From the IMG/VR virus record IMGVR_UViG_3300010149_000153, positions 1 to 25,569 of that record: a stretch of 25,569 bases of DNA. One strand, given 5' to 3'. The stretch comes from a virus. Positions 1-13,799 of the stretch are shown here, piece by piece. The notes beneath the pieces were generated by a model. The model saw only the letters and a program-made list of their open reading frames with translations. It was not told the origin of the DNA and ran no database searches. The position numbers were made by a program, and so were the translations under genes. Numbering within the stretch: position 1 is the stretch's first letter; each line of letters opens with the position of its first letter.

Positions 1-71
1 GATCAGGATTCCGCTTCTGCCACGATTGGTTGGCGAACAAGACATGCAAAAAAGACAGGGAGGAGGAATGA
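1..71 (+). CDS. C-terminal end of an unknown small protein (5' end cut off)
   Basis: An open frame enters from the left edge (first full codon at base 3) and ends at TGA 69-71. The visible 22 residues include FCHDWLANKTCKKDREEE, so it is rich in Cys, His and Lys and could be the end of a small zinc-binding protein, but too little is seen to say. It ends in three glutamates encoded by GAGGAGGAA, which at DNA level is the Shine-Dalgarno sequence of the next gene. The same ending recurs downstream, which is the main reason to believe this frame. Stop and next start share one base (TGATG). Confidence 0.55.
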   Translation, partial: SGFRFCHDWLANKTCKKDREEE

Positions 72-376
72 TGTCGTTCACTGGAAAGCGCAACAGCGGC
101 CCTCGAAAGACCATGTTCCACCGCAAGCCAAAGTCAAGGAGTATGGCGAACCGTGTGTGGAATACTGTTCATAGCGTGTATGGTCGGCCACCAACCTGGA
201 TGCACATGATTCCCCCTCGCCGTTGGTATGAAGGGGATGACGGCGAGAAAGTCTTCACGGAAACAACACGTTGGGTTATCTCGTTTGATGAGAACGGGGA
301 AAACAAAATGATCATAGATGGCCGAGCCAAAGATGTGGCTGAGGCAATCTTACAAGGGGGAATCCATGATGCTTGA
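71..376 (+). CDS. Hypothetical protein, 101 aa, basic N-terminus
   Basis: Unrecognised. The first 40 residues are strongly basic (KRNSGPRKTMFHRKPKSR), followed by a tryptophan-rich segment and a short domain that looks beta-rich (RWVISFDENGENKMIIDG). Two adjacent ATG codons (68 and 71) are possible starts. ATG 71 sits 4 bases after GGAGGAGG (59-66) and is preferred; ATG 68 lies only one base from it. The basic start suggests nucleic-acid contact, which is inference. It overlaps the next gene by 11 bases, typical of the coupled small genes in this block. Confidence 0.6.
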   Translation: MSFTGKRNSGPRKTMFHRKPKSRSMANRVWNTVHSVYGRPPTWMHMIPPRRWYEGDDGEKVFTETTRWVISFDENGENKMIIDGRAKDVAEAILQGGIHDA

Positions 377-1091
377 CGAGTTCAAATTCCCCCATGCTCC
401 AAAAACACCCTTGTCCGTGATTGTTTGTGAATTGGATCCAAGTGAAAAGTGGATTAAGAATCACCCCTCCACCCGTTCTGCTGTGATCGATGATAGTCTT
501 TCATATCCTGAAGACTTCTCGGAGGTTATAGCGTTCTTGCCAGCGGTCGAACTCCCCCATGCATTAAAATCACTTGATTTTATTGTATTCATTGATCTTT
601 ATGGAAACGTTGGACTCATGCCAATTGACAATGCAAGGAAGAATTACGATCCTTTGGTGAGAGAAGATACATCTGTCGAAGAACACTTTAGGCGTATGTA
701 CCTGCATAAGAAATTCACCAATGCTATGGAAAAGGCAGGATGGCATTGTATGACATCGGAAACAGATCTCAAGGCATTCCGTGATTTGACACAGCCATCA
801 GGAACGGAATTGTTCAAGACCGTGTTGTATGGAGAAGATGGAGAAGTGGATTCGGAAGAGGAACCCCTGCCATACGATCCAATACCAGAAGCAATACTGA
901 AAGGACTCGAACGCTTCGCCTTTTGCGAGGCTTGCGGCCATCCTCACGATACGGATGCATACTCCTTTGAGGTGGATGGCTGCGAGTCGTGCGGTGCTGA
1001 ATTCGACGGAATGAACTTATTGGGGCAGATCTTCGTCATCGGAAGCAATGAAGATTCCATGCCAGGTTTGGATCAAGAGGAATGGGCATGA
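366..1091 (+). CDS. Hypothetical protein with C-terminal zinc ribbon, 241 aa
   Basis: Unrecognised overall. The body is acidic (about residues 1-175). Toward the C-terminus two cysteine knuckles are visible, FCEACGHPH and GCESCGAEF, separated by about 16 residues, which is the spacing of a zinc ribbon. ATG 366 follows AAGGGGGA (354-361) at a normal distance, and a second ATG at 369 is also possible. Its stop overlaps the start of the next gene as ATGA. A role in binding nucleic acid or protein through the zinc ribbon is inference; no catalytic motif was seen. Confidence 0.65.
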   Translation: MMLDEFKFPHAPKTPLSVIVCELDPSEKWIKNHPSTRSAVIDDSLSYPEDFSEVIAFLPAVELPHALKSLDFIVFIDLYGNVGLMPIDNARKNYDPLVREDTSVEEHFRRMYLHKKFTNAMEKAGWHCMTSETDLKAFRDLTQPSGTELFKTVLYGEDGEVDSEEEPLPYDPIPEAILKGLERFAFCEACGHPHDTDAYSFEVDGCESCGAEFDGMNLLGQIFVIGSNEDSMPGLDQEEWA

Positions 1092-1378
1092 CTTTCACCA
1101 TTCCCGATCCACGTCCTCGAAAGCCATCTGCAAAGATTCCACGGTGGTGGAAATGCGGATGCGAAGTTAATCTGGATTGGGTTCTTGATGGATTCCAGTA
1201 TTGCCCATACTGTGGAATGAAGTATCCAAAAAATAAATTGAATTTGATCGGCAGATGGATGTCCTATTCAAGTTGGCATACGACATACAGAAAAATTTCT
1301 GTTTCACGTGATGATATGATGCAATGCAAAACAGTTGAGCATGAGCCTGGAAATAAGGGATTTACTTCAAAGTTATGA
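1088..1378 (+). CDS. Small zinc-ribbon protein, 96 aa
   Basis: Near the N-terminus lies a compact zinc ribbon: WWKCGCEVNLDWV, then FQYCPYCGMKYP, i.e. CxC and CxxC about 16 residues apart. The rest is basic and unrecognised. ATG 1088 is chosen over ATG 1082 because AAGAGG (1075-1080) is 7 bases from 1088 but only 1 base from 1082. The start overlaps the upstream stop as ATGA. After its stop there is a 37-base spacer with no recognisable signal. The function is unknown; small zinc-ribbon proteins are common among early viral genes and often bind nucleic acid or host proteins. Confidence 0.65.
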   Translation: MTFTIPDPRPRKPSAKIPRWWKCGCEVNLDWVLDGFQYCPYCGMKYPKNKLNLIGRWMSYSSWHTTYRKISVSRDDMMQCKTVEHEPGNKGFTSKL

Positions 1379-1415
1379 GTGAGCCTTTAAGCCCCATATC
1401 CCTTTGGATAGAATC

Positions 1416-1664
1416 ATGTGGCTTTTTGACAGAGCGGCGAAACGGGAACAGATGCGTAAAGAGCATGAATCATTCATTGCTCCTTTGAAGAATCTGCTTG
1501 CTGAATTATTTGCTGATCGAGGTATGCTCTTAGGAAGCACACAATATAATGAAATGATTGGAGTTGAGAAGTGTAAAGCCCTCAGCGAGATCGATGACAG
1601 AATTATTGCTGTCAAGGAAAGAATACATTCGGAGGCTACGCGATGGAAGCAACGTCTCTTGTGA
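1416..1664 (+). CDS. Hypothetical helical protein, 82 aa
   Basis: Unrecognised. The sequence looks almost wholly alpha-helical with heptad-like spacing and many charged residues (KREQMRKEHESFIAPLKNLL and ALSEIDDRIIAVKERIHSE), so a short coiled coil is likely. The start is uncertain: ATG 1416 is used, but a TTG at 1404 lies in frame and neither has a strong Shine-Dalgarno sequence. The 3' end overlaps the next gene by 22 bases. A frame on the opposite strand covers the same stretch but does not fit the direction of this block. Confidence 0.5.
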   Translation: MWLFDRAAKREQMRKEHESFIAPLKNLLAELFADRGMLLGSTQYNEMIGVEKCKALSEIDDRIIAVKERIHSEATRWKQRLL

Positions 1665-1987
1665 AAATATGGGAAGAGGAAGATGAAGGGCAACTTTGGA
1701 CATTGTGTTCAACCCTAACCTTTGGAATGGATTGGGAGGTTGCGGTTATGATTGCGCCTCCAAATCGAGCAGGTTGGAGTGTTGTTGATGTTGATGCAAC
1801 AAACCTTGTTTCACGTGCCATTGCGGATGAACATCTTGCAACAATTCAAGAACATCTCAAAAACATTGGATACAGGCTGAATAATGATCATGTCAAGTGG
1901 CGTTGGAAGTATGATCAAGCGGCAGAATCATTCCGAATGAATCTTCGCGCTCCAAAAATTGTTGCACCACTTCTGGAGGAGGAATGA
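1643..1987 (+). CDS. Hypothetical protein, 114 aa
   Basis: Unrecognised. A mixed alpha/beta protein with an acidic N-terminal patch (KIWEEEDEGQLW) and no cysteine cluster or known motif. The start ATG 1643 is well supported by GGAGG at 1632-1636, six bases upstream. It ends in LLEEE: the last codons form GAGGAGGAATGA, which doubles as the ribosome binding site of the following zinc-ribbon gene. Stop and next start are separated by only two bases. Confidence 0.65.
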   Translation: MEATSLVKIWEEEDEGQLWTLCSTLTFGMDWEVAVMIAPPNRAGWSVVDVDATNLVSRAIADEHLATIQEHLKNIGYRLNNDHVKWRWKYDQAAESFRMNLRAPKIVAPLLEEE

Positions 1988-1989
1988 AA

Positions 1990-2133
1990 ATGAAATGTGA
2001 AGATTGCGGAAGCAAGAATTTGATACCAAATGGGAAGAGATATTGCCCCCTCGAAAAGATCGAGAAGGATACTCTTCGATGCAAACAATGTAGGAGGTGG
2101 TTTTTTGGCGGTATCCATGCCCAATCCGAATGA
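1990..2133 (+). CDS. Tiny zinc-ribbon protein, 47 aa
   Basis: Starts MKCEDCGSKN and carries a second knuckle RCKQCRRW about 25 residues on, giving CxxC...CxxC with one extra Cys between (RYCPLEK). This is the pattern of a stand-alone zinc ribbon. ATG 1990 lies 7 bases after GGAGGAGG (1975-1982); an in-frame ATG at 1984 is only one base away from it and is less likely. The 3' end overlaps the next gene. Its function is unknown; the fold suggests nucleic-acid or protein binding. A second tiny protein of the same design lies at 12908-13039. Confidence 0.6.
   Translation: MKCEDCGSKNLIPNGKRYCPLEKIEKDTLRCKQCRRWFFGGIHAQSE
2092..2100 (+). promoter_or_regulatory. Strong Shine-Dalgarno site that favours a TTG start
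   Basis: AGGAGGTGG lies 7 bases (counted from the last G of AGGAGG) before an in-frame TTG at 2105, whereas the first good ATG (2117) is much farther off. The ribosome site therefore supports TTG as the start of the 173-residue protein that follows. The site lies inside the coding sequence of the tiny zinc-ribbon gene upstream. Confidence 0.5.
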
Positions 2134-2626
2134 GGAAGACGTCGAATGGGCGTACTACCTATGGAACTCTCTGTCACGGGATGGCGGCAAATGGATCCTC
2201 CCTGGTGTGGGAGTCTATCGCAGAACTGGTGATAAGAAGTTATCATTAACCGAAATTCATTTTGCGAAACCGAATAAAAACGAATTTGAGCAGAGTGTAT
2301 TTGATCGACACCACTGGATTATGGTTCTCGCGGATAACATTGGGTGGACAATAGACGAGGCTGTTGAGTTGGCTAAGGACGAAGATGGACAGTTAAACAT
2401 CCCTGACGAAATGATTGGTCATGTTTCGATCTGCAATGCACGATGCGGAGCCATATTACGAGTTGAAGAACCAGTTCCTTCCGAGATTTACGAATTGATT
2501 GATGAAGAACTGAGATGCCCCTGCTGCCAGCAGGAGCAAGTCATCGAACCCGCTTTGAAGGGAATCCATGTCATCGTTGATGATCGGGGCTGGCAATTGA
2601 AAAAGCAACGTCAAGAAGAGGAATGA
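2105..2626 (+). CDS. Hypothetical protein with C-terminal zinc ribbon, 173 aa
   Basis: Unrecognised in its N-terminal two thirds (tryptophan-rich, with DRHHWIMVLADNIGW and a helical segment). The C-terminal third carries a zinc ribbon: ICNARCGAIL and RCPCCQQEQ, about 30 residues apart. The TTG at 2105 is chosen because of the strong AGGAGGTGG just upstream; ATG 2117 is the alternative. The protein ends RQEEE, the last codons again forming GAAGAGGAATGA before the start of the next gene at 2630. Function unknown. Confidence 0.6.
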   Translation: MAVSMPNPNEEDVEWAYYLWNSLSRDGGKWILPGVGVYRRTGDKKLSLTEIHFAKPNKNEFEQSVFDRHHWIMVLADNIGWTIDEAVELAKDEDGQLNIPDEMIGHVSICNARCGAILRVEEPVPSEIYELIDEELRCPCCQQEQVIEPALKGIHVIVDDRGWQLKKQRQEEE

Positions 2627-2629
2627 TTC

Positions 2630-2926
2630 ATGAGTCAAGATTTTAATTCAAGATTGAACGGAGTTGTCCCTTGTCAATTCCAACCTGGTCATGAATTACA
2701 TGTTATGACAAGTGAAGCATTTGGAACGAGAGTTCTCAATTTACGCTTGAACAGAATCATACCATCCATCAGAGGATACACGGGCTATACTAAGCAGGGT
2801 TTTATGCTTCAAAGGGATGAAGCGAGAGTGCTGTTAGAACAACTTCTCGAAGTGGTGAACGACGATGATCAGTGGGAAGATGATGCAGAGGAAATCGTTC
2901 CAATAGTAGGTGAAGAAGATGCTTGA
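2630..2926 (+). CDS. Hypothetical protein, 98 aa, faint PC4-like pattern
   Basis: The centre reads as a small beta sheet followed by a helix (NLRLNRIIPSIRGYTGYTKQ, then GFMLQRDEARVLLEQLLEVV), after which comes an acidic tail (DDDDQWEDDAEE-like). This sheet-helix-acidic-tail layout faintly recalls PC4/p15 coactivator domains that bind single-stranded DNA, with the 'TKQGFML..DEA..LLE' stretch in the place of PC4's 'TKKGI.L...E...L'. The likeness is weak and by eye only. ATG 2630 follows AGAGGA of the upstream gene's EEE end. The 3' end overlaps the next gene by 8 bases. Confidence 0.55.
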   Translation: MSQDFNSRLNGVVPCQFQPGHELHVMTSEAFGTRVLNLRLNRIIPSIRGYTGYTKQGFMLQRDEARVLLEQLLEVVNDDDQWEDDAEEIVPIVGEEDA

Positions 2927-3299
2927 ACGCTGGCTTGAAAAACATCATGAAGTGATGGAGCAAATGATGATAGATCTTGAATTGCCAATTGAATTGCTAA
3001 ATTTCTGCTATGATCTTTGGTTGGGAGCGAGGTTGAAAGCACCAAGGACGCCAAACTCCCTGATCGTTGATTGCATTTACACCATAGCGCATATGACTGG
3101 CAACAGACGTTCCTTCACGCAAATGAAAGACGCATCGATGAGAGTCATTGGGCGGAGGTGTGAACCTCTCCATCATGACAGAAGGCGCAAGCGAGCAGGT
3201 GATACGCGTTGGGTCGAAACAGATTGGGGAAAACATTTGATTCTTTCATTGGTAAATGATGAGTCGTCGTATGACGATTTAGTCAATGGAAGTGTTTGA
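2919..3299 (+). CDS. Hypothetical protein, 126 aa
   Basis: Unrecognised. Helical N-terminus (MLERWLEKHHEVMEQMM) and a basic middle (RCEPLHHDRRRKRAGD). No membrane segment and no cysteine cluster. ATG 2919 sits 5 bases after AGGTGA (2908-2913) and is preferred to the GTG at 2910. It overlaps the preceding stop by 8 bases and is followed directly by the next gene, whose TTG start abuts its TGA. It could be a small DNA-binding protein judging by its charge, but no motif supports this. Confidence 0.6.
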   Translation: MLERWLEKHHEVMEQMMIDLELPIELLNFCYDLWLGARLKAPRTPNSLIVDCIYTIAHMTGNRRSFTQMKDASMRVIGRRCEPLHHDRRRKRAGDTRWVETDWGKHLILSLVNDESSYDDLVNGSV

Positions 3300-4766
3300 T
3301 TGACGACAAATTACAGGGAAATATCCGAGTCTTTGAGAGTGGCCCCTGTATTGAAAACAAAGAAGTATTCTTTGATCGAGAATTTGCTTCGTAAGAATCA
3401 CTTGAATCAATGGAAAATTGTTTATCTCATGCATTCCCCGTCATCTAAAGTTAGGTTGTCGGACGAAGACTTTCGAGAGATTTACTTCCTGCTCACAGAT
3501 CTGTACCCCGAAGAAGTTGAACCAAATCCAGATCCAATAAATCTGTTGTCTTATTTGTCAAAGGCTTCCAAAACAACATCGATTTCGGAAAGAGTCTTTG
3601 AGATCACACGGCAAGTTCTTCATGAGGAAAGAGATAACGCAGAGAGGGCAGCATTACTTCGCCCGTTGTTTTCAAGAATTGAAAGAGAGGATCTGTTTTA
3701 CGCTTTGTTGCGTATGAGTTCCAGACCATTGCCGATCAACCGACATGATGTTGTCAAGGCTTTAGCAAGAGCAAACGGAAAATTGATGAGGAACATTCGT
3801 AAAGCATCGTTTCTTATTGGTATGGAAAAAGTATGCCAACGGCTATCCAGGGGAGAAGACATCCAAGAGATCTTGACCCCTGCGCTTGGAATTCCAATGA
3901 TTCTTCCATCTCCATCGGTCTTGAGCATTGATGATTTACCGTTTGGCAAATGCTACATGGAAATACCAGAAGGGCAATGGATGACACTCCATGTCCTGCG
4001 AGATGATATTTTCATGTACGACTCCGTGGGGGCAAAGGTCATTGTGGAGGACGCTACACGGCAGATGGTTAAATCTGCTTCAATTGATGAGGGCATTTAC
4101 CTTGTTGAGTACGCATCAGGGAGAGACATCGAAATTCAAATTCTCGATCAGTTGAACGTTGATAGTGACATGATGTCGTTTGAAAAGCGTAGGGCTGGAA
4201 TCAATTGTGCAGAGTGGGCAAAGAAAGATATGGTTTTGTTGAAGGATGCCTCCTATTATATGGAAAAAGTTGGAGTATCACAACCTGTATTACTTTGGAA
4301 CTACAATGGGGTTTTGACCTATGAAAATTCCATTTATGAGGTTGCCTTGCTCAATGCACAAACATCAAAACATTCCATTTTCCAAGTGGTAGGAGGCGTT
4401 TATACTGTTGAAACCCCGCTTGCCGCACCTAAGTTGAAGAAATGGCGAGTTGCTGTTCGAGATGGCGACTCATATTATCCAGTGGGGTTGATCGAAGCCG
4501 TACCTTCGTTTTCGCTGAACAGATTCATCAAGCCACACAAAGTTGCAGATGGAGAAGAGGTTGTCATGATCTCCCCCGTGTTTGTGAAAGTCAAAGTATT
4601 GGGATCTGGATGGGGCGACTACGGTGCGTACATTCAAGGGGTCATCACTGGTCACGCCGAACAAGCGGGCTTGTCCGATTGCGTTAGCATCGATGAACTC
4701 GAAGTATTATCCAAGGGATGGGAAGATGGATATGGCGATATTATTGGAGATCGGCAAGAAGATTAG
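3300..4766 (+). CDS. ATP-dependent DNA ligase-like protein, apparently without the catalytic lysine
   Basis: The 488-residue layout follows archaeal ATP-dependent DNA ligases: a helical N-terminal region (about 1-190), a short linker ending GIPMILPSPS where ligases have their P-rich 'P.kPMLA' segment, then a nucleotidyltransferase-like region. At residues 220-225, where an active ligase has the K-x-D-G motif, this protein reads MEIPEG. The following TLHVLRDDIFMYDSVG matches in spacing the ligase 'vQIH..g.ev.iFSRNG'. The lysine that would carry AMP is therefore Ile and the Asp is Glu. No later ligase motif is clear. It may be a non-catalytic DNA-clamping or end-binding descendant. Start is TTG 3300, directly after the upstream stop, with GGAAGTG upstream. 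The ligase relation is by-eye judgement and moderate. Confidence 0.45.
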   Translation: MTTNYREISESLRVAPVLKTKKYSLIENLLRKNHLNQWKIVYLMHSPSSKVRLSDEDFREIYFLLTDLYPEEVEPNPDPINLLSYLSKASKTTSISERVFEITRQVLHEERDNAERAALLRPLFSRIEREDLFYALLRMSSRPLPINRHDVVKALARANGKLMRNIRKASFLIGMEKVCQRLSRGEDIQEILTPALGIPMILPSPSVLSIDDLPFGKCYMEIPEGQWMTLHVLRDDIFMYDSVGAKVIVEDATRQMVKSASIDEGIYLVEYASGRDIEIQILDQLNVDSDMMSFEKRRAGINCAEWAKKDMVLLKDASYYMEKVGVSQPVLLWNYNGVLTYENSIYEVALLNAQTSKHSIFQVVGGVYTVETPLAAPKLKKWRVAVRDGDSYYPVGLIEAVPSFSLNRFIKPHKVADGEEVVMISPVFVKVKVLGSGWGDYGAYIQGVITGHAEQAGLSDCVSIDELEVLSKGWEDGYGDIIGDRQED

Positions 4767-4911
4767 AGATTGGGCATTACGACAAGAGGGGCTATTTTCA
4801 TGGTTAGCAATACCGATGGCGGTCATTATGATATTGGGGGCGACATTGCTTTATCTCCTGTTGATGATGACGATAATCCCCTTCATATGGATCAAGCAGA
4901 AGGTGATTTGA
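4726..4911 (+). CDS. Small membrane protein candidate, 61 aa
   Basis: The frame encodes a charged amphipathic start (LLEIGKKIRDWALRQEG), then a long hydrophobic run from about residue 24 to 55 (WLAIPMAVIMILGATLLYLL, MMTIIPFIWI), then a positively charged end (KQKVI). This is one long or two short membrane helices. It overlaps the end of the ligase-like gene by 41 bases, and its stop would overlap a TTG start of the next gene as TTGA. However, the next frame stays open across most of it with a competing ATG 4800. Either this gene or that longer N-terminus is real, or both are. Confidence 0.4.
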   Translation: MDMAILLEIGKKIRDWALRQEGLFSWLAIPMAVIMILGATLLYLLLMMTIIPFIWIKQKVI

Positions 4912-5306
4912 CCTCGTTCATCATGTCGGCAACTTTGATTCGTGGTCAAATTCGTTGCAAACTTTCAACGATCTATCAGTGTGGGTATGAGATAAGACCC
5001 ATAATTTGGTTCGTCAAGCGAACGCCCCAGGTTGAAGACAATTTGAAACGTCTTGGTCTTGAATATCGTGACACATTTGTTCGTACACAAGACATCTCTA
5101 AATTGTGCCATGCATACCGCCGCTACTTCAATTTGAGCAATATGGAAAATCAGTTGAAAATGGTCGATCACTTTAATGGCATATTGCCGCAGCCACACAA
5201 TCACGAAGAGGTTGAGGAGATCATTGACTTGTTAGATGAACAGAGTGAGTCTTTAAGACCCCCCTCCCCTTCGGATGAATCCCGCAAAGGAAGTGAACAA
5301 ACATGA
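4908..5306 (+). CDS. Hypothetical protein, 132 aa (start uncertain)
   Basis: Unrecognised. The core is a mixed domain (TLIRGQIRCKLSTIYQCGYE, IIWFVKRTPQ), followed by helices and a charged, proline- and serine-rich tail (SLRPPSPSDESRKGSEQT) that looks disordered. Two starts compete. TTG 4908 gives a four-base stop/start overlap with the small membrane gene and sits just behind AAGGTGAT. ATG 4800, 8 bases behind AAGAGGGG (4784-4791), would add 36 acidic residues and overlap the membrane gene by 112 bases. The end overlaps the start of the next gene as ATGA, suggesting coupling to the replication block. Confidence 0.5.
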   Translation: MTSFIMSATLIRGQIRCKLSTIYQCGYEIRPIIWFVKRTPQVEDNLKRLGLEYRDTFVRTQDISKLCHAYRRYFNLSNMENQLKMVDHFNGILPQPHNHEEVEEIIDLLDEQSESLRPPSPSDESRKGSEQT

Positions 5307-6613
5307 ATGAAGCATTGAAGAGAGTAATGGACGCCAAGAACTGGGATGAAGCCACGACGAAGGAGAACTTCGCCACCTTCATCAAAGAAAACTACCCCGA
5401 AATTTGGACACAAGCAGGTACTGTTCTTGCTAATGTGTCGCCTGATGACATCGATTTCTTCTCGTCTGCATTTGAAGTGAACAGTGTTCGCCGCAAAGGA
5501 TCCGGTGGCAAAGGCGAAGAATGGGTTGGAATGGTCGTTGCTTATGACGGCACACGCGACACAATGGGTCGTCAAAGAGATTCGGCAATCGATGCCGCAG
5601 AAGTCAACATCAGTCAAGCCCTCCGCTACGGCATTGAAGTCAATGGACGCACCGTTTCGATTGGCCGTGTTTCCAAGAAAGACGGCGAATGGGTTGTCTA
5701 TGATGCCAACGATGCCATCACATACAAGGAATCAGTCAAGGGCGAAGACGTTCCGCTGTGGGTCATCGCCATCAACGGTGGAGCCTCTCACATCTGTCTT
5801 TTGAAGGCCGACAACCGATCACCAAAGCGAGCCTTCATGCCAAAGCGCAAGTGGCTTTTCATCGGCAACACAACCGGCTCCTTCTTCTCGGAAGGGCCAT
5901 TGCCTCCAATGACGCTTGAATGTTCTTTCTCTGCCGCAGAGGTTGATTTGCAACTGTTCCGCCCAATCCGATTCAAAGCGGAAAAGGAAGCAGCATGGAA
6001 GCCAGCAGGTTCCACTGAACCTGATGAGGAGATTCTCAAAGCACTTGACCTTGATCCAGATTATGGTTTGGATTGGGTTGAAGATCAAATGGTCGCAAAG
6101 GCGACTCAAATCTTCTCCCCCGATCAATTCTTGGCTAACTTCATGGAAACGGTTGATTTGGCCTCTGCCTTCGACTATCACATGGAGAACCGCAAGATTC
6201 TGTCAAGTGGTCGAGATTGGGGTCCGACATTCGCCATCAGTGGGACAGTTGATTACATCGACTATGCTGGAAAGGAGAATGCTTACACCGAGGGTGGCTT
6301 CAAGCATTCCCTCACATTGACCTCGAACAGCCTCCGCCGTGAAGATCCAAAGGCAAGTCTTTGGCTTGACGTTCCACGCGTTCTTGTTGAAAGCCATCAT
6401 GCACTTCAAGTCAAGAAGGCAGACAACTGGAAGGACTTTGCTCAGGGAAGCCGAGTGTGGGCTGTTGTTCGCTCTCGATCATGGCAAGGTACTGACGGAA
6501 ACATCAACCTCAACATGGACGCCCTCAGCGTCTATGCCATGCCTCTTCGTTCCATCGTTGCACAGAATGCCCCTGACGACGCTAACAGCCTCGGTCACAC
6601 GGAGGGATTTTGA
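5303..6613 (+). CDS. Probable OB-fold single-stranded DNA-binding protein (RPA-like)
   Basis: A 436-residue protein with two beta-rich regions (about 70-205 and 300-425) separated by an acidic helical linker. The strands KGEEWVGMVVAYDG, EWVVYDANDA and GPTFAISGTVDYIDYAG, SRVWAVVRSRSWQGTDG fit the alternating pattern of OB folds as in RPA-type proteins. No single diagnostic motif is visible, so the call rests on the strand pattern plus context: it directly precedes a Sak4-like ATPase, a pairing known in viral recombination modules where Sak4 acts with an SSB. It would coat single-stranded DNA during replication. The start overlaps the upstream stop as ATGA behind AAGGAAGTG. A different beta-sandwich protein cannot be excluded. 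Confidence 0.45.
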   Translation: MNEALKRVMDAKNWDEATTKENFATFIKENYPEIWTQAGTVLANVSPDDIDFFSSAFEVNSVRRKGSGGKGEEWVGMVVAYDGTRDTMGRQRDSAIDAAEVNISQALRYGIEVNGRTVSIGRVSKKDGEWVVYDANDAITYKESVKGEDVPLWVIAINGGASHICLLKADNRSPKRAFMPKRKWLFIGNTTGSFFSEGPLPPMTLECSFSAAEVDLQLFRPIRFKAEKEAAWKPAGSTEPDEEILKALDLDPDYGLDWVEDQMVAKATQIFSPDQFLANFMETVDLASAFDYHMENRKILSSGRDWGPTFAISGTVDYIDYAGKENAYTEGGFKHSLTLTSNSLRREDPKASLWLDVPRVLVESHHALQVKKADNWKDFAQGSRVWAVVRSRSWQGTDGNINLNMDALSVYAMPLRSIVAQNAPDDANSLGHTEGF

Positions 6614-7882
6614 ATGGCGGGAACTGGATTCTTTGACAACTGGGAACCCGTTGATACCACCAAGGAACCCGTCCGTGGAGAACCTGCTGCAACTGTTGCA
6701 GATCTTCCTTCGACCTCCTCAACTGGAGTCACTGTCGCACAAGCACCTCCTCTTGAGGCTTTGATCGATGAAGCACCCGATGCTCCTGAGCAAGAACCCG
6801 CCGAACCTGCACCACTTCCTCCTGTCGGAGATCAAGAAGGCATGGTTTCTGGATTCACTGAGGTGAAGCCTCCGTCCAAAGACGGGTGGCAATTGCCACA
6901 ATCAGCCAACCCTGCTTGGAAATTGATTGCGAAGGCGGTCAATACCAATCTCCGAGATTTCAACTTTGTTTTTGCAGGTGTCGATGGCCCTCGAAAGGCA
7001 GGTAAAACTGGATTTGTCTTGGACTCCCTCACAGAGGAGGAAATCGCAAATGGCGCACAGATCTGGCACGTGGACTTTGATCTTGGCGGGGAAACCACAA
7101 AGATGGCTCACCACAAAGACAAGGCGGCGAATATCGTCGTCCTCAATCCATGGGTTGTTTTCAAGGCTCGAAGCCGTGTCCCCTTTGACTTCCCTGCTAC
7201 TTTCCAAAACACCATGGACATTCTGCTCTATGCGGTGGAAGTTGCTGAGGCTCAAGAGGACTACTTCCTTGCTCACGGGAAGATGCCCACGCCTTATCTC
7301 AAGACTCTCTGTTTCGATGGACTCGACCATTGGTTGAACATCTGCGAAACAGTCATGAAGATCGAAGACCTTGAACTGGGCGTTGATGGCATCGCCGTAG
7401 CAGGAAAGGCGGCAACCACAAAGATTGGACGATTCAATTGGAACATCCGAAAGAATCGTTACAATGCAGCCATGTCAAATATGCTTGAATTAGCACGTCG
7501 CTTTGTTCATGTGTATTGCATCACGGGCCGCAAGCCGTCTTATGACAAGAACGGCAACGAGATCCGTGGAGCGGATGTTCCCGCATGGCTCAAGGACTCC
7601 GAGCGTGATTTCCAACAACTCATCTCAGTTGACATCGAAGAAATGCGCGATGACCATGGTGCATTGAATGGTGAATCCAAAGCAACTGCTGTGTTGAAAG
7701 CGAACCGCACAAGCCTCGACAGCCCTCCTCCAGTGGTACTCTTCAAAAGGACTCATGATGGAGGAATTTGGAACGGTTGGCCTGGTGTCAGCGACGGTTC
7801 CTTCCGACATCCTGATGATGTCTATGATGGCGTTTCGATCAATGAAGACGGTGAATTAGTCGTCATCCCTGGAGTTGAGTGA
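6614..7882 (+). CDS. Sak4/RecA-like P-loop ATPase
   Basis: A 422-residue protein. Residues 1-95 are low-complexity, rich in Pro, Glu and Ala (EPAEPAPLPP), likely a disordered tether. The RecA-like core carries a Walker A, GPRKAGKT (residues 125-132), and a Walker B, TLCFDGLD (231-238). This compact core with short Walker A spacing is typical of Sak4-family viral single-strand annealing or recombinase ATPases, often annotated as AAA_24 or 'nucleotide-binding protein'. It would load on ssDNA and help strand annealing or exchange. Start ATG 6614 follows GGAGGGA (6602-6608). The gene immediately follows the probable SSB, which supports the role. A Walker-type terminase or helicase is less likely, since no nuclease or helicase motifs are seen. 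Confidence 0.65.
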   Translation: MAGTGFFDNWEPVDTTKEPVRGEPAATVADLPSTSSTGVTVAQAPPLEALIDEAPDAPEQEPAEPAPLPPVGDQEGMVSGFTEVKPPSKDGWQLPQSANPAWKLIAKAVNTNLRDFNFVFAGVDGPRKAGKTGFVLDSLTEEEIANGAQIWHVDFDLGGETTKMAHHKDKAANIVVLNPWVVFKARSRVPFDFPATFQNTMDILLYAVEVAEAQEDYFLAHGKMPTPYLKTLCFDGLDHWLNICETVMKIEDLELGVDGIAVAGKAATTKIGRFNWNIRKNRYNAAMSNMLELARRFVHVYCITGRKPSYDKNGNEIRGADVPAWLKDSERDFQQLISVDIEEMRDDHGALNGESKATAVLKANRTSLDSPPPVVLFKRTHDGGIWNGWPGVSDGSFRHPDDVYDGVSINEDGELVVIPGVE

Positions 7883-8161
7883 ATGAGTCAAACATCACTG
7901 GCTGGTCAGGAACATGGGTACACCCTCTCGTTCGAGCATACCCCAGAGGTCATGAACGAAGCATACCGCATCCGTGGTCTTTTGCACACGAAGCATGACA
8001 TGACATTTGACACGGGAGTCGGTTCCGAAATCGATTGGTTTTTGGATTGGTCGCTTAGTGGAAATCACATGAACGACGTCTTCGCCGCTCTCACCATCGT
8101 GCTGAAATACATTCACGAATCAACAATCATCAGCGGTTATACGATCACGAAAACTCGGTGA
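7883..8161 (+). CDS. Hypothetical protein, 92 aa
   Basis: Unrecognised. A soluble small protein with a predicted helix-rich second half (HMNDVFAALTIVLKYIHEST) and no Cys cluster. ATG 7883 abuts the upstream stop (GTTGAGTGAATG), with GGAG just before. It ends in CGG TGA, where GGTGAT is the Shine-Dalgarno sequence of the next gene, which starts four bases later. Its position between the Sak4-like ATPase and the PAPS-reductase-family gene suggests co-translation but gives no function. Confidence 0.6.
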   Translation: MSQTSLAGQEHGYTLSFEHTPEVMNEAYRIRGLLHTKHDMTFDTGVGSEIDWFLDWSLSGNHMNDVFAALTIVLKYIHESTIISGYTITKTR

Positions 8162-8165
8162 TTCG

Positions 8166-9152
8166 ATGGAGGATGAATTCCCTAAGACAGGAATGGTTGC
8201 ATTCAGCGGTGGCAAGGACAGCGCAGCCATGCTCTTGCGTATGCTTGAGTTATGGACACAGGGGGATAAACGATACCCAATTACCAAGATCACATTTGCA
8301 GACACAGGATTTGAATTGCCTGAGTTGATCGAATACATCCGAATGATCGAGGCGTACATTCAAAAAACATATCCCGAATTGGATTTGAAAGTTGATTTTG
8401 TTGGATCTCCTCGAACATGGGACGACTGGTTCTATGGTGTGATCTCCAGAGGGAACAACAAAGGAAAACAACGTGGCGCACCCCTTAGAGCGTACCCTTG
8501 CTATTGGGCAAGAGAAGCCAAGGTGCAGCCTTTGCAAAAGGCTCAAGCGGATTGCGACGTCGTTTATATCGGCATTGCCGCCGACGAAGCCCATAGAGTC
8601 GGCAAGAAGGAAGACAAACGAAACGACAAGAACAGATACCCTTTGGTCGAGTGGGGATGGTCGGAAGCCGATTGTATGCGCTATCTTGACGAACGCAATT
8701 TGGTCAATGAGTTGTATGTCAATTTCAATCGCCTCGGTTGCTTTCATTGTATCAAACAGCCTCTTGATTCATGGTGGTCGCTTTGGCGTGGCTATCCCGA
8801 TCTGTGGGAAATTGCAAAGCATTGGGACAAGGAAAGTGTCAAGGTCAGCAATCATGGCCTAAGATCAATGAAACCTGGCAAGGATGGATACCTGTTAGAG
8901 GAATTGGAAAGCCGATTCAAAGAGGGGTACAAACCCTTGCCAAAGAAAGGATTGTATGATTGCAACTCCTGCAAGGCTGTATCCTTCACTGCCACTGGAC
9001 AAATGTCCTTGGCTGATTTCGATAGCGATGAAGCCATTGAAAGAATGAATCCAAAATTCATAGATGAAGAACCACCTGCCTGTGATATGCTGGCATCTCC
9101 TAATGAGATGAAAATACACAACTTGATCGAAGTAAATTTAGAGGAGGAATAA
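8166..9152 (+). CDS. PAPS-reductase/ATP-pyrophosphatase family protein (CysH/DndC-like)
   Basis: Residues 11-19 read VAFSGGKDS, the PP-loop signature of the phosphoadenosine phosphosulfate reductase family. IGIAADEAHR (136-145) stands where the family has its second nucleotide-contact motif. Cysteines at 112 (YPCYW), 192 and 195 (GCFHC), and 266 and 269 (DCNSC) could hold an iron-sulfur cluster, as in DndC and some CysH proteins. Family members activate or reduce sulfate (CysH) or take part in DNA phosphorothioation (DndC). Many viruses carry stand-alone members of unclear role. At 328 residues it is longer than plain CysH. No cysteine desulfurase or other dnd gene lies nearby. ATG 8166 follows GGTGAT. 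It ends VNLEEE in the stop-within-SD style. Confidence 0.8.
   Translation: MEDEFPKTGMVAFSGGKDSAAMLLRMLELWTQGDKRYPITKITFADTGFELPELIEYIRMIEAYIQKTYPELDLKVDFVGSPRTWDDWFYGVISRGNNKGKQRGAPLRAYPCYWAREAKVQPLQKAQADCDVVYIGIAADEAHRVGKKEDKRNDKNRYPLVEWGWSEADCMRYLDERNLVNELYVNFNRLGCFHCIKQPLDSWWSLWRGYPDLWEIAKHWDKESVKVSNHGLRSMKPGKDGYLLEELESRFKEGYKPLPKKGLYDCNSCKAVSFTATGQMSLADFDSDEAIERMNPKFIDEEPPACDMLASPNEMKIHNLIEVNLEEE
9141..9149 (+). promoter_or_regulatory. Shine-Dalgarno site overlapping the upstream stop
   Basis: GAGGAGGAA encodes the last three glutamates of the PAPS-reductase-family protein, is closed by TAA, and lies about 8 bases before the ATG at 9156. It is the clearest example of the stop-within-ribosome-site pattern seen through the + strand block. 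Confidence 0.6.
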
Positions 9153-9155
9153 ACC

Positions 9156-10214
9156 ATGAAAGAACGTTTGAAATTGAAGCCACCGAAGTTGATGCCCGTC
9201 CCTCGAAGGGATGATGTGAGGGGAACCTATGCATGGCATCCAGGGATGAAGGAATACAAGGGGGAAGACGGAAAAATTTACACGCCTGTCCTGCGAGTCT
9301 CCAAATCATCATGGTCAACATTCACCTTTTGCGAGCAGCAATACTTCATCAAATATGTTCTTGGAGTAAAGGAGCCTCAAAATGATGCAATGCTAAGAGG
9401 AACAAATGTTCACGATGCATACGAATACATCCTCGATCATCTCCTCGACATCCATGAAGCCCATGCGATTCGAGATCATCAAGGAGAGGAGGCTCTCCAT
9501 GACTATTTCCAATCATTGATTCCAACGAGTCAAGTATCAAAGGGGTGGGATGATGAGATCGCTCAACACACGGGCAATCCTTACCTTCTGGATGAGGAAA
9601 AGCATCTCGCCCGATTGATGACCGCTGAGGCAAAACGTTTCTTCCACAGCGACCCTGTTTATTTCAAGCCACTTGGAAATGAGAGGACCGTTGATGCCTT
9701 CGTTGAAATCGAAGTAAATGGGGTTGTTGTGCCTGTTCACTTGACAGGGATAATTGATCGACTCTTTGTTGGCCCAGAAGGGGATCTGCATGTTCATGAA
9801 TTAAAGACTGGTTTGTGGAAAGATAAGAAAACAAAGTACGAAGGCATGGCAGGAGAAATGGCATACTATGTTTATTTGCTACGCAAATCCGACGATCCTG
9901 AATTGGGAGGAGCCAATATCAAGTATTGGGGTTGGGATCATACCAAAGGACTCGAAGGAGAACCTGATCGCATCTATCGTTTTGTTGAGCGAGTTCAAAC
10001 TGGCATAGTCAGCAGCATGATTGCAAACCTCAAAGCAATGGTTTCAGCACACCTTCGATACAAAGGCGATTTTAACGGCAAGTCTTTCGCTGTAAAGCCT
10101 CCAAACGCTGAGAGGTACATCTGTGAGCCTTGGTGTAAAGTCGATGGATACTGCCCTAAGAATGCACGTTATCTCATGCCTAAAGAAATGAAGGAAAAGG
10201 CGGAGGGGAATTGA
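9156..10214 (+). CDS. Cas4/RecB-like PD-(D/E)XK nuclease with iron-sulfur cysteines
   Basis: A 352-residue nuclease. Order of motifs: WSTFTFCEQQYF with Cys59; RGTNVHDAYE with the family His86; GIIDRLF with Asp201; HVHELKTG with Glu215 and Lys217 (the E-x-K of PD-(D/E)XK); the EMAYYVYLL helix (residues 234-242, standing in the place of the QxxxY motif); then CEPWC and GYC (Cys323, 327, 333). Cys59 plus the three C-terminal cysteines match the four-cysteine [4Fe-4S] cluster of Cas4 and AddB nucleases. Such proteins resect DNA ends, giving single strands for recombination, consistent with the neighbouring Sak4-like and SSB-like genes. Start ATG 9156 follows GAGGAGGAA. No Cas1 or CRISPR repeat is present, so a CRISPR role is not supported. 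Confidence 0.8.
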   Translation: MKERLKLKPPKLMPVPRRDDVRGTYAWHPGMKEYKGEDGKIYTPVLRVSKSSWSTFTFCEQQYFIKYVLGVKEPQNDAMLRGTNVHDAYEYILDHLLDIHEAHAIRDHQGEEALHDYFQSLIPTSQVSKGWDDEIAQHTGNPYLLDEEKHLARLMTAEAKRFFHSDPVYFKPLGNERTVDAFVEIEVNGVVVPVHLTGIIDRLFVGPEGDLHVHELKTGLWKDKKTKYEGMAGEMAYYVYLLRKSDDPELGGANIKYWGWDHTKGLEGEPDRIYRFVERVQTGIVSSMIANLKAMVSAHLRYKGDFNGKSFAVKPPNAERYICEPWCKVDGYCPKNARYLMPKEMKEKAEGN

Positions 10215-10215
10215 T

Positions 10216-11547
10216 GTGCGATATATCAGCCTGTTTAGCGGAATCGAAGCGTGTTCAGTTGGATGGCGAAATCTCAATTGGGATCCTGTTGCCTTTGCTG
10301 ACTTTGATGATTTTCCATCTGCGGTGCTTGCTCACCATTATCCAAATGTACCCAACCTCAAGGATGTGTTGAATGTTGACTGGTCAAAATATGAAGGAGC
10401 AGCCGATCTCGTCGTCGGAGGAAGCCCCTGCCAATCCTTTTCTGTCGCAGGAAAGCGACTTGGAATGGATGATCCACGTGGCAACTTGGCCCTCCACTAT
10501 CTCCGAGTTGTTGGGGCAGTTCGCCCAAAGTGGTTCCTCTATGAAAATGTCCCAGGTCTATTGTCATCAAACGAAGGAGATGATTTTGCCATCTTCCTCG
10601 GAGAAGTGGCGAAACTCGGGTATGGGTTCGCCTATCGAGTTCTTGACGCTCAACACTTCGGAGTACCCCAACGAAGGCGTCGAATCTTCGTTGTCGGATG
10701 TGCTGACGGAGATTGGAGAAGTGCCGCAGCGGTACTATTTGACAAGCAGAGCCTCCAGGGGAATCTTGCGTCGAGCAGACAAAAGAGGGAAGAAGATCAA
10801 TCCCTCTCTGCGTTCGGCTTTGGAAGCGAGAGCAGACCTGTTGGAAGAGGAATAAGTGAAGAAAAACCTGCTGGATCTTTGACGGCAGGTATGTATCATC
10901 ATGGCTCGATCAACAACCAATGCTTAGGAACCAATGCTCATTTGATTATGGAAAAGGGAATCATTCATGCTGAAAAGGTCGGACCCACTATGGGGGCAAG
11001 CGGTCCACCTTATTCTCGAACAGGAAACCAAAGGGTTGAGCATGAAGCGTTAGTTGTGCAAAAATCAGCCTTCCAGCAACAAGGCGTCGATTTATTCAAT
11101 CAAGAGTTGACAGGAGATCTCCATTGCCCATTAAGAACAGCGGGAGGTCATGGCGCACCAGCAGTTATGCAGCAAAAAGAGGTGGCGGGTATTGTGAGCA
11201 AAGGCAATGGCGATATTTGGGAAACGCCAGAACGACACATGAGCCTTACAAGTGGAGGAGGATTAGCGGGGCAAGGTTATGCAGCAATTCGAGAAAATGC
11301 CATCGTTCGTAGGCTAACTCCACTTGAATGCGAACGGCTCCAAGGATTTCCCGATAACTACACAAAAGTTCCGTGGAAGGGAAAACCAGCAGAGGAATGC
11401 CCTGATTCACATCGATACAAAGGTCTTGGAAATAGCATGGCGGTTCCAGTTATGCAATGGATCGGAGAGAGAATTGATATGATGGACTCAGCAGACTTGT
11501 CAAATCGGAGCAAGCCGAAGGCAAGGAAGCAAATGACATTGTGGTGA
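10216..11547 (+). CDS. C5-cytosine DNA methyltransferase (Dcm type)
   Basis: A 443-residue enzyme that methylates carbon 5 of cytosine in DNA, using S-adenosylmethionine. Visible motifs in order: SLFSGIEA (motif I, residues 5-12), GGSPCQSFSVAGKR (motif IV, nucleophile Cys72), YENVPGLL (motif VI, Glu110-Asn-Val), PQRRRRIFVVG (motif VIII, 151-161), a variable target-recognition stretch (about 180-365), LTPLECERLQGFPD (motif IX), and YKGLGNSMAVPVM (motif X). Start is GTG 10216, 6 bases after GGAGGGGA (10202-10209). The length is typical of phage members. It probably protects viral DNA from host restriction; the target sequence cannot be read from the protein. An open frame lies within it at 10373-10855. 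Confidence 0.92.
   Translation: MRYISLFSGIEACSVGWRNLNWDPVAFADFDDFPSAVLAHHYPNVPNLKDVLNVDWSKYEGAADLVVGGSPCQSFSVAGKRLGMDDPRGNLALHYLRVVGAVRPKWFLYENVPGLLSSNEGDDFAIFLGEVAKLGYGFAYRVLDAQHFGVPQRRRRIFVVGCADGDWRSAAAVLFDKQSLQGNLASSRQKREEDQSLSAFGFGSESRPVGRGISEEKPAGSLTAGMYHHGSINNQCLGTNAHLIMEKGIIHAEKVGPTMGASGPPYSRTGNQRVEHEALVVQKSAFQQQGVDLFNQELTGDLHCPLRTAGGHGAPAVMQQKEVAGIVSKGNGDIWETPERHMSLTSGGGLAGQGYAAIRENAIVRRLTPLECERLQGFPDNYTKVPWKGKPAEECPDSHRYKGLGNSMAVPVMQWIGERIDMMDSADLSNRSKPKARKQMTLW
10373..10855 (+). CDS. Possible overlapping gene inside the methyltransferase, up to 160 aa
   Basis: In the +1 frame relative to the methyltransferase an ORF runs to TAA 10855. Its last 80 residues read like phage proteins I remember being annotated beside or within dcm genes: NSGMGSPIEFLTLNTSE, SSLSDVLTEIGEVPQRYYL, RGILRRADKRGKK. 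It ends ADLLEEE, with GGAAGAGGAATAA, the same ending style as the other genes here. It could start at ATG 10373, 10391 or farther in. Against it: methyltransferase conservation alone forces some similarity in the other frame, and shadow ORFs of this size occur elsewhere in the window. The recalled resemblance was not searched. Confidence 0.3.
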   Translation: MLTGQNMKEQPISSSEEAPANPFLSQESDLEWMIHVATWPSTISELLGQFAQSGSSMKMSQVYCHQTKEMILPSSSEKWRNSGMGSPIEFLTLNTSEYPNEGVESSLSDVLTEIGEVPQRYYLTSRASRGILRRADKRGKKINPSLRSALEARADLLEEE

Positions 11548-11551
11548 TATT

Positions 11552-12646
11552 ATGGCTTTATTTGATCATTATCCACGGGAAATCGACATGAGGACTCGAA
11601 AGGTGATCACAAATAAGAAACAGTTGGAGCATTATCTCAAAACAACAAACGGCAAAGCCAATTTGACCACTACGGTGTATGGTTTTCGTGAATTGAAAAC
11701 AAAGGGCAATCGTTGTGAGTATAGTACGGCAATTGTTCCTCACTTCGTCATGGACTTTGACGCTGATCAAGCGGTTAGATTGGAACAGATGCCCCTCTCC
11801 GATGCCCAAACGAAATGTTGTAGGGAGGTTGAACTGATGTCAAAAATGTTGAAGAGAAAGTCGATACAACATGCGATTTGGTTCACTGGCGGTGGATTTC
11901 ATATATGGGTAAAACTCGATCAAACATACGACTTGCCAACTGTCGAAATGAATGATTTGTTATTCTCTGGAAGAATGGTGATAAATCAATGGGTCAAGCA
12001 ATTCAATCTCATAACATTAGATCCGGTGGTTTCCTTTCGACCAGACCGCCACATAAGAATTCCAAATACTTTCAACTTCAAACGACAGTTGTGGGGGATT
12101 CCAGTAAATGTGGATGATCTTGAAAAGGGATGGCTTTTCATAGAGGAACAAGCGCATACGCCACGACCTGGCATGAAATTAGTCGAAGGTGGCGGCATGA
12201 CAATTACGATCACAAAGCGAGATTCTCAAACAATGTTTGCATCTCAATATGATCAAAAATCAAAGACCTTTTCAATGGAAGATCTGGAAATCGATATTGC
12301 TAATATCAACAATATACCAATGCTTCCATGTTTATCTCAAGCAGCGTGTGAAGTTGGAAGCAACCCCCCCCATAAACCACGTTCATACTTAATGATGTAC
12401 CTCATGGATTATTATCGAAACTTTGCAAGACCTCCAAAAACAAGCAAAGTGCCAAACCAACAGGTGATCGGACTCGCTCATGAATTTATCAAATCACTTA
12501 ATTGGGCCGACTATAACCCAAATGAAACAATGAAGTATCTCCGCCATGGTGCAGATCGATACTACAAGACACCAACCTGTCCAACCATTTACGCAGAAGG
12601 CATGTGTGTAGGCAAATGCCCCTATTACGATGGGAAGGGCGCATGA
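11552..12646 (+). CDS. Archaeo-eukaryotic primase with fused PriL-like iron-sulfur tail
   Basis: A 364-residue primase. N-terminal AEP domain: FVMDFDAD (residues 65-72) supplies the two metal-binding Asp (68, 70), WFTGGGFHIWV (110-120) is the primase 'SGG.G.HIW' nucleotide motif, and DPVVSFRPDRHIRIP (157-171) supplies the third acidic residue and the basic RxP motif. The C-terminal part has Cys260, Cys343, Cys352 and Cys356 in PTCPTIYAEGMCVGKCPYY-like surroundings, matching the four-cysteine [4Fe-4S] domain of PriL. Large and small subunit functions thus seem fused, as in primases of some archaeal plasmids and viruses. It would make primers for viral replication. The ATG follows GGTGATATT, in which TGA is the stop of the methyltransferase gene. 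Confidence 0.82.
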   Translation: MALFDHYPREIDMRTRKVITNKKQLEHYLKTTNGKANLTTTVYGFRELKTKGNRCEYSTAIVPHFVMDFDADQAVRLEQMPLSDAQTKCCREVELMSKMLKRKSIQHAIWFTGGGFHIWVKLDQTYDLPTVEMNDLLFSGRMVINQWVKQFNLITLDPVVSFRPDRHIRIPNTFNFKRQLWGIPVNVDDLEKGWLFIEEQAHTPRPGMKLVEGGGMTITITKRDSQTMFASQYDQKSKTFSMEDLEIDIANINNIPMLPCLSQAACEVGSNPPHKPRSYLMMYLMDYYRNFARPPKTSKVPNQQVIGLAHEFIKSLNWADYNPNETMKYLRHGADRYYKTPTCPTIYAEGMCVGKCPYYDGKGA

Positions 12647-12660
12647 AAATAGGTGATGAC

Positions 12661-12918
12661 ATGACAGATGACAAGATCGAGGAAATACGACGAAAGAAAG
12701 CAGAAGAAATGTTGAAACAACACCATAACAATGAGTTGCCTCCACAAATGCTTACTTGGTCATTCCGAGTGAATCCTCAATCCGGCTATTGTGAGATCAT
12801 GCAATTTGATAACATGGTTTCTTTGACTCTTGATCCAAAGTGGGCGAAATTGGTTTGCGATATGTTGAACAGCCTCGAAATCGCTAAACAGGCGGAGGGC
12901 GTTGGCAATGAAGTGTGA
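12661..12918 (+). CDS. Hypothetical protein, 85 aa
   Basis: Unrecognised. The N-terminus is a charged helix (DDKIEEIRRKKAEEMLKQ) and the rest a small mixed domain (TWSFRVNPQSGYCEIMQF). Start ATG 12661 is preferred because AGGTGATG (12651-12658) sits just upstream. An in-frame ATG at 12643 overlaps the primase stop as ATGA and would add six residues. The 3' end overlaps the next zinc-ribbon gene by 11 bases. The helix faintly recalls PDCD5-like N-termini, but nothing else supports that. Confidence 0.55.
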   Translation: MTDDKIEEIRRKKAEEMLKQHHNNELPPQMLTWSFRVNPQSGYCEIMQFDNMVSLTLDPKWAKLVCDMLNSLEIAKQAEGVGNEV

Positions 12919-13039
12919 AATGTGCGACAATGAGGTTGTTTCCAAGGTATCATATCATGTTCTCTGCGATGAATGCGGAGATAAACGCCGAAAGGCATAT
13001 GCAATGGCGTTCCAGCAAAGAAAAGAGGAGGAGGAATGA
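12908..13039 (+). CDS. Tiny zinc-ribbon protein, 43 aa
   Basis: Short but well-formed: MKCEMCDNEV at the start and LCDECGDKRRK further on give CxxC-x13-CxxC, a complete zinc ribbon, followed by a basic helix and the ending RKEEEE. The final GAGGAGGAGGAATGA is at once the glutamate tail, the stop and the ribosome site for the nuclease gene that follows (TGATG overlap). It resembles the tiny protein at 1990-2133 in design. It may bind nucleic acid or a replication protein; this is inference from fold and position only. Confidence 0.6.
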   Translation: MKCEMCDNEVVSKVSYHVLCDECGDKRRKAYAMAFQQRKEEEE

Positions 13040-13749
13040 TGTCCGATCAACGCGTACTTTTTATCGACAATCGAGAGAGATCTGGTCTTGAAAAACTGAT
13101 CATCAAATATCTCGACAAGAAAAATTTGAATCATCAAATGAGACAAACGATGATCACCGATTACTCTTTTGCAGACGTCGGAATCGAAGCAAAAACAATT
13201 CAAGACTACATGCAAAGCATGTATTCAGGACATCTTGAAAAGCAGTTGCAGAATTTGGAAGACAATTACAACCATGCATACTTAGTGATCCATGGGACTT
13301 TGGACAAGTATGTTGGATCTGCACGAAAGGGAGGGAGGAAAATACCTTTCCAACGTGCCTTCGCCTCATTTACAGGGTCTTTAGCAAGATATGCCACTGA
13401 CTACGACATTTCGATCCTAACATTTGACTCAACCTCTCTCGCCGCTCGTTTCATTGCAAAGCGTTTTGAGAAACATGGAACGCTTGGATCATCCTCAACC
13501 TATCGGCTCCTTCGGAAGACCGCCACAGAAGACATGAGAATCGACATCCTCCAGGCGGCAGGATGTAGCCTTGCCATCGCCAAGAGGCTACTCGAAGAAC
13601 ATGGCTCGATCATTGAAATTGCTTCGCTCAGTGCCAAGGAATTGATGGTCACAGAGGGCATTGGAAAGGTTCGTGCAGATCGAATCGTTCGTGCGATTAA
13701 CAGTGAAACAGAAGTTCCTCAAGAGCGCGTAAAGATGGCAAGAGCATGA
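13039..13749 (+). CDS. XPF/ERCC4-type endonuclease with helix-hairpin-helix
   Basis: A 236-residue protein. ERCC4 nuclease domain: FIDNRERSG (Asp10, Arg12-Glu13) matches the family's 'D.RE..S', ITDYSF (Asp41) its 'GDY', and GIEAKTIQDYMQSM (Glu50, Lys52, Asp56) its 'ERK...D...S', here with Ala in place of Arg. SGHLEKQLQNL fits 'dGRL..Q...L'. The C-terminal part (AAGCSLAIAKRLLEEHGS and TEGIGKVRADRIV) is a tandem helix-hairpin-helix that binds DNA. Enzymes of this type (Hef, Mus81, XPF) cut branched or fork DNA; this is the short, helicase-less form found in archaea and viruses. ATG 13039 lies 4 bases after GGAGGAGG. The neighbouring primase and helicase-like genes fit a role at replication forks. 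Confidence 0.85.
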   Translation: MSDQRVLFIDNRERSGLEKLIIKYLDKKNLNHQMRQTMITDYSFADVGIEAKTIQDYMQSMYSGHLEKQLQNLEDNYNHAYLVIHGTLDKYVGSARKGGRKIPFQRAFASFTGSLARYATDYDISILTFDSTSLAARFIAKRFEKHGTLGSSSTYRLLRKTATEDMRIDILQAAGCSLAIAKRLLEEHGSIIEIASLSAKELMVTEGIGKVRADRIVRAINSETEVPQERVKMARA

Positions 13750-13799
13750 GGCTTGATATATGACGCTCGCGTTCGCTTACCTTGCGACAGGTGAATCAA
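13750..13799 (+). promoter_or_regulatory. 50-base spacer with a possible weak TATA element
   Basis: This is the longest gap between genes on the + strand. It holds GATATAT (13755-13761), a possible archaeal TATA box at a workable distance from the next start, and AGGTGA (13788-13793), the ribosome site of the next gene. No transcription factor B recognition element is clear, so a promoter is only a possibility. Confidence 0.2.

Follow-up and report, generated by a model that had tools for sequence, protein, structure and literature searches.

A conserved DNA ligase homologue without a canonical active site in magrovirus-like viruses, probably repurposed for a non-enzymatic job

Does a viral protein that is laid out as a DNA ligase but lacks the catalytic residues of one still serve the virus, and in what capacity? 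This question is raised by gene g08 of a virus record of 25,569 bases (hereafter, the window), whose bases 1–14,763 are 99.99% identical to part of the 90.3-kb IMG/VR contig IMGVR_UViG_3300006793_000018 (hereafter, G001). The TTG start codon of g08 directly abuts the upstream gene, and the frame of 488 codons (coding part 3300–4763) contains no internal stop. The gene and its parts are as follows.

3300..4766, plus strand: pseudo-ligase gene g08, 488 aa, TTG start, stop codon TAG at 4764–4766 (ORF, AF2, Foldseek, hhalign)
3300..3884, plus strand: helical N-terminal domain, approximately residues 1–195, equivalent of the ligase DNA-binding domain (all-helical in AF2; full-length Foldseek and hhalign coverage)
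3456..3500, plus strand: segment with the highest conservation in the family, LSDEDFREIYFLLTD, residues 53–67 (highest 15-residue window, 0.84)
3885..4388, plus strand: degenerate nucleotidyltransferase domain, approximately residues 196–363, boundary approximate (AF2/Foldseek, hhalign)
4389..4763, plus strand: C-terminal OB-fold domain, approximately residues 364–488, boundary approximate (AF2, hhalign, column table)

Sequence searches with the g08 protein gave no meaningful match in Pfam, PHROGs or PDB, and an 18-member alignment of its family likewise gave none; weak Pfam matches to DED and Acetyltransf_11, far below the cut-off, were rejected as chance. Scans of viral contigs identified 64 loci with homologues, down to approximately 30% identity. 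No homologues were found in phage records or GTDB genomes, nor among plasmids, where the window protein was the only query. A family alignment of 52 rows served as the basis of the AF2 model and of the column counts given below for the motifs of the g08 family.

Modeled from the single sequence, the protein reached a pLDDT of only 33.5, as compared to 82.8 (pTM 0.62) with the 52-row alignment. The best Foldseek match of this model in PDB is 6wbo (E = 5.8e-20, approximately 565 columns, 15% identity, full length), and each of the best 50 PDB matches is an ATP-dependent DNA ligase or a ligase-containing complex, with archaeal ones on top. The matches in BFVD (viral structures) are viral ligases, including the DNA ligase of the archaeal virus HGTV-1. 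Relative domain placement in the model is uncertain, given the pTM and whole-chain TM-scores of 0.42–0.59. Aligned by hhalign with 58 archaeal and 2 viral ligases, the family scores 63.9 over 467 columns, as compared to at most 23.9 after shuffling of columns and 37.6 after shuffling of blocks (100 shuffles each), and about 21 with reversed alignments. The score is higher, 93.8 (E = 3.5e-11), with the ligases of syntenic viruses considered below, the hhalign alignments covering 459–467 columns.

Both Foldseek and hhalign recover, over the full length, the order DNA-binding, nucleotidyltransferase, OB. The same order and fold characterize the archaeal/eukaryotic-type ATP-dependent DNA ligases (PF04675-PF01068-PF04679; e.g., Pyrococcus 2cfm, Thermococcus 6wbo, Archaeoglobus 3gde), with which g08 also shares the Gly and His of the motif I region, the motif IIIa Asp, a downstream Arg, and the OB-fold strand W-x-x-x-x-R-D-G. 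Thus, by architecture and descent, the g08 protein is a member of the ATP-dependent ligase lineage. The original prediction, made from the window sequence alone, had described an ATP-dependent ligase layout in an intact 488-codon frame; both points hold, the predicted structure being a ligase fold of three domains and not an unrelated one, and the frame being under selection.

What g08 lacks, as compared to these ligases, is the motif I Lys, the motif III Glu, the motif IV Glu and Lys, the motif V lysines, the motif VI R-x-D-K, and about 20 residues between motifs III and IIIa. The equivalents of the motifs map as follows.

3954..3992, plus strand: motif I equivalent, residues 219–231, YMEIPEGQWMTLH; E-x-K-x-D-G-x-R-x-Q-x-H in ligases (column table, n = 52; hhalign registers)
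4017..4031, plus strand: motif Ia equivalent, residues 240–244; F-[SN]-R-x-G replaced by Y-D-S-V-G, Arg lost, Gly244 invariant (hhalign, column table)
4086..4103, plus strand: motif III equivalent, residues 263–268; D-[GT]-E-[IV] replaced by x-x-G-I-Y-L, followed by the deletion of about 20 residues (hhalign, column table)
4140..4154, plus strand: motif IIIa equivalent, residues 281–285, ILDQL; Asp283 invariant, stacking Phe lost (hhalign, column table)
4284..4301, plus strand: motif IV equivalent, residues 329–334, PVLLWN; E-G-x-x-x-K replaced by P-x-x-x-x-N (hhalign, column table)
4338..4355, plus strand: motif V equivalent, residues 347–352, EVALLN; W-x-K-x-K lost (hhalign, column table)

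Residues 215–231 of the window protein read FGKCYMEIPEGQWMTLH (window 3942–3992), with IPEG at 3963–3974. Family-wide, K-x-D-G of motif I is replaced by [IVST]-[PVIL]-[ERQ]-G; since E-x-[PVIL]-[ERQ]-G is one residue shorter than E-x-K-x-D-G, the register is ambiguous by one residue. Not a single homologue (0/52) has a Lys at residues 219–225, and so the replacement of K-x-D-G by I-P-E-G with loss of the AMP-binding Lys, as originally predicted, was upheld by the homologue alignment. The position of the motif III Glu is occupied by Gly265 in 52/52 homologues, and that of the motif IV Lys (residue 334) by Asn in 46 of the 52. Motif VI R-x-D-K, found in 16/16 intact viral ligases, is absent from the g08 protein (approximately residues 449–460). 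Invariant in the nucleotidyltransferase core are Gly225, His231, Gly244, Asp283, Arg297, and Lys309; in the OB domain the W...RDG strand is also kept, and WRVAVRDGDSYY (residues 382–393) is conserved. We refer to the protein as a pseudo-ligase because its active site fails the definition of the enzyme.

The gene belongs to a replication operon whose downstream genes are conserved as a block.

5303..6613, plus strand: g10, conserved syntenic gene, 436 aa (order kept in the family loci and in most intact-ligase viruses)
6614..7882, plus strand: g11, conserved and syntenic; weak match to the AAA_24 ATPase family in a remote homologue (synteny)
9156..10214, plus strand: g14, PD-(D/E)XK nuclease, same block (Pfam; synteny)
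11552..12646, plus strand: g16, primase-like, same block (weak PF01896 match, E = 0.005; synteny)
13036..13749, plus strand: g18, ERCC4-type nuclease, same block (Pfam; synteny)

Two further genes are interspersed here: a PAPS-reductase-like gene (PF01507, phrog_424; window 8166–9152, plus strand), inserted in the replication block in only part of the related viruses, and a C5-cytosine methyltransferase gene (window 10216–11547, plus strand), variably present within the conserved operon.

Scanning viral contigs with the archaeal ligase alignment located intact viral ligases, and in at least 11 genomes of sister viruses an intact K-Y-D-G ligase of about 510 aa occupies the operon slot of g08. 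In one such genome, G025, the ligase gene is followed by g10, g11, g14, g16, g18, g19, and g20. This arrangement recurs in G027 and in ten further regions, with individual genes undetected in some contigs; in one more region, that of G033, the contig ends near the ligase. Hence g08, sharing operon position and downstream order, is the positional orthologue of the sister-virus ligase. These ligases (G025, G027–G035, G037, G038, G040, L279, L299) are also its best profile match, but unlike g08 they possess K-Y-D-G-x-R (present in all syntenic ones), the motif III Glu, E-G-x-x-x-K and R-x-D-K (motifs IV and VI kept in 16/16 tabulated), and are predicted to be active. The g08 family HMM matches most of the syntenic intact ligases directly (hmmsearch, 6e-4 to 1e-8); the A2 search of G025–G027 gave no match, which we treated as a sensitivity limit, as hmmsearch matched on the same contigs. 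In the unrooted tree of g11 and g14, pseudo-ligase and intact-ligase viruses are split at 100% support, which is consistent with a single transition from ligase to pseudo-ligase, the intact form being considered ancestral because of its match to cellular ligases.

Is another ligase present in these viruses? Weak collinear PF01068 matches pointed to a gene between the portal and the prohead protease/MCP genes whose product is about 1140 aa long.

G001 25434–28856 (= L263:6434–9856), plus strand: second degenerate ligase, head module (PF01068, alignment)
L110–L117; G009 66356–69910; G012 11382–14801: homologues of the second degenerate ligase

In sister viruses, this position of the head module is occupied by a gene for a protein of about 850 aa that contains a ligase with intact Q-E-K-Y-D-G-M-R. 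In the clade of the window, motif I reads Q-K-[KM]-P-x-G-[KE]-R or similar, the motif III Glu is replaced (11/11), the motif IV Gly is deleted and its Lys replaced by Arg (11/11), and the motif V lysines are lost. Both ligases, that of the replication operon and that of the head module, are degenerate in this clade. The original prediction had placed g08 far from other pseudo-enzymes; the statement was incomplete, as the near-identical genome G001 encodes this second degenerate ligase about 43 kb away.

All 18 records selected because they encode a canonical ligase passed the PF01068 cut-off, and none of the 23 records of the window's clade did. NAD-ligase and RNA-ligase families had no match in the 23 clade records, which may be incomplete, and an archaeal/viral ligase HMM found no canonical ligase in three clade genomes of 90–108 kb. 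A scenario in which a canonical ligase encoded elsewhere frees g08 to decay was rejected, none having been found in the same, possibly incomplete, 23 records. Among the sister viruses, G025, G028–G035, G037, G038, and G040 have a canonical ATP-dependent DNA ligase gene in the head module in addition to the one in the replication operon; we found no remark on this ligase pair of magrovirus-like genomes in the literature.

The family is under strong purifying selection. The dN/dS ratio is 0.024–0.098 in 14 of the 15 computable pairs, the exception being a pair with almost no changes. The distribution of constraint also differs: the peak of conservation in a 15-residue window falls on LSDEDFREIYFLLTD in the g08 family and on motif I (0.77) in intact viral ligases. 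Constraint in the g08 family has shifted away from the active site and towards the N-terminal domain. The loss of every catalytic motif might suggest a decaying pseudogene heading for loss, but dN/dS values mostly below 0.1 and full-length intact frames across the clade, down to about 30% identity, make this extremely unlikely; the frame exceptions are L056, split in two, and L033 and L066 (one record), cut by contig ends. Still less credible, with a probability close to nil, is an accidental resemblance of an unrelated viral family to ligases. The silence of Pfam, PHROG and PDB sequence searches for the protein and the 18-member family would fit it, but independent structural and profile evidence, both with controls, and the direct matches of the family HMM to syntenic intact ligases do not. 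Since sister viruses hold an intact K-Y-D-G ligase at the same operon position, g08 is a retired ligase rather than a chance look-alike, and very probably one that is catalytically dead and functionally retained.

A ligase-fold protein without the canonical active site could use an unrecognized one, and the invariant residues of the nucleotidyltransferase core listed above may be seen in this light. The nucleophile might have relocated, or the protein might perform only the sealing step on DNA pre-adenylated by another ligase. Against this reading stand the loss of motifs III, IV, and V, which canonical ligases also need for the final step, and the lack of a conserved Lys in the motif I strand; the invariant Lys309 lies outside the canonical motifs. 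We regard residual catalysis as improbable. A dead ligase is needed as well if the protein acts mainly as an adaptor or decoy that, for instance, recruits or restrains the host ligase or sliding clamp without binding DNA, so that only the mechanism differs. The most conserved segment is the acidic N-terminal LSDEDFREIYFLLTD and not the former active site, and the nucleotidyltransferase and OB domains are acidic (mean net charges −8.9 and −8.2, as compared to −2.9 and −2.3 in intact relatives). However, no partner was identified, the operon is rich in DNA-acting enzymes, and the N-terminal domain is slightly basic, being the only g08 domain more basic than in intact relatives. The domain charges do not decide between DNA and partner binding, and we consider the adaptor a possible but less favored option.

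The reading of g08 as a retained, non-catalytic ligase can be extended as follows. In a group of magrovirus-like dsDNA viruses, the replication operon would ancestrally have held a ligase of about 510 aa with its active site intact. The window's clade retains this gene at its operon position, under strong purifying selection and with the whole DNA-binding/nucleotidyltransferase/OB architecture, but the AMP-accepting Lys and the most important residues of motifs Ia, III, IV, V, and VI have been lost. The present protein would then form no ligase-AMP and seal no nicks, sealing being left to the host ligase, on which the clade probably relies. It may take part in viral DNA replication or repair without catalyzing any step, anchored by its N-terminal domain, which would bind to DNA (at nicks or junctions, as ligases do) or else to a partner protein; the DNA-binding factor of the original prediction is a putative one. 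Because the gene, though stripped of every catalytic motif tested, is conserved at the position of the intact ligase of sister viruses, the protein has probably been repurposed for a non-enzymatic job, and the chances that this is a specific non-catalytic role in replication seem about even. Considering both loci, we lean somewhat towards the view that one clade turned both its ligases into conserved non-catalytic structural or recruitment proteins, with the ligase scaffold being selected beyond nick sealing.

Pseudoenzymes of replication proteins are already known; in archaea, inactivated replication enzymes include family B DNA polymerases. Like g08, the latter are replication enzymes kept as non-catalytic proteins, whereas g08 is a DNA ligase, is viral, and corresponds in position to an orthologue that is intact in sister viruses. 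Searches of the open-access literature yielded no report of a DNA ligase that a whole clade retains at full length but without the active site. Because the enzyme is intact at this locus in sister viruses, the two groups offer a natural comparison for roles of the ligase scaffold beyond nick sealing. For annotation, a gene labeled "DNA ligase" in these marine viruses does not in every case imply ligase activity.

The viruses themselves are probably marine and archaeal, and we call them magrovirus-like based on the chaperonin, genome size, and a ligase next to the prohead protease. Chaperonin PF00118 is present in 17/23 clade records, the largest of which are 90–108 kb, in agreement with the chaperonin gene and the genome of about 90–110 kb that characterize Magrovirales. 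Family B DNA polymerase (PF00136) was detected in 9/23, with G001, the 90-kb relative of the window, not among them. The MCM helicase (PF00493), reported for Aoguangviridae, was found in 0/23 clade records, an MCM requirement across Magrovirales not being established. The clade shares with published magroviruses the size of about 90–108 kb and the two oppositely transcribed modules. ATP-dependent DNA ligases were reported in the magrovirus families Aoguangviridae and Apasviridae (PMC10768690; PMC12999244; PMC10160649), and in magrovirus group A the ligase gene adjoins the prohead protease (PMC7318539), as it does in the window's clade. The published magrovirus ligase was treated as an enzyme, whereas in the window's clade both ligase genes are degenerate. 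Two other genes of the window were characterized by eye. At the module boundary, a 396-aa ORF (15912–17102, minus strand) resembles a second DNA methyltransferase (FAELFAGLGGSS ... SFPCKAF), and a 1821-aa ORF (20085–25550, minus strand) has an internal LamG-like stretch (ASLWLKADALDLQDGDAITSWIDSSG...) and is probably a tail or fiber protein.
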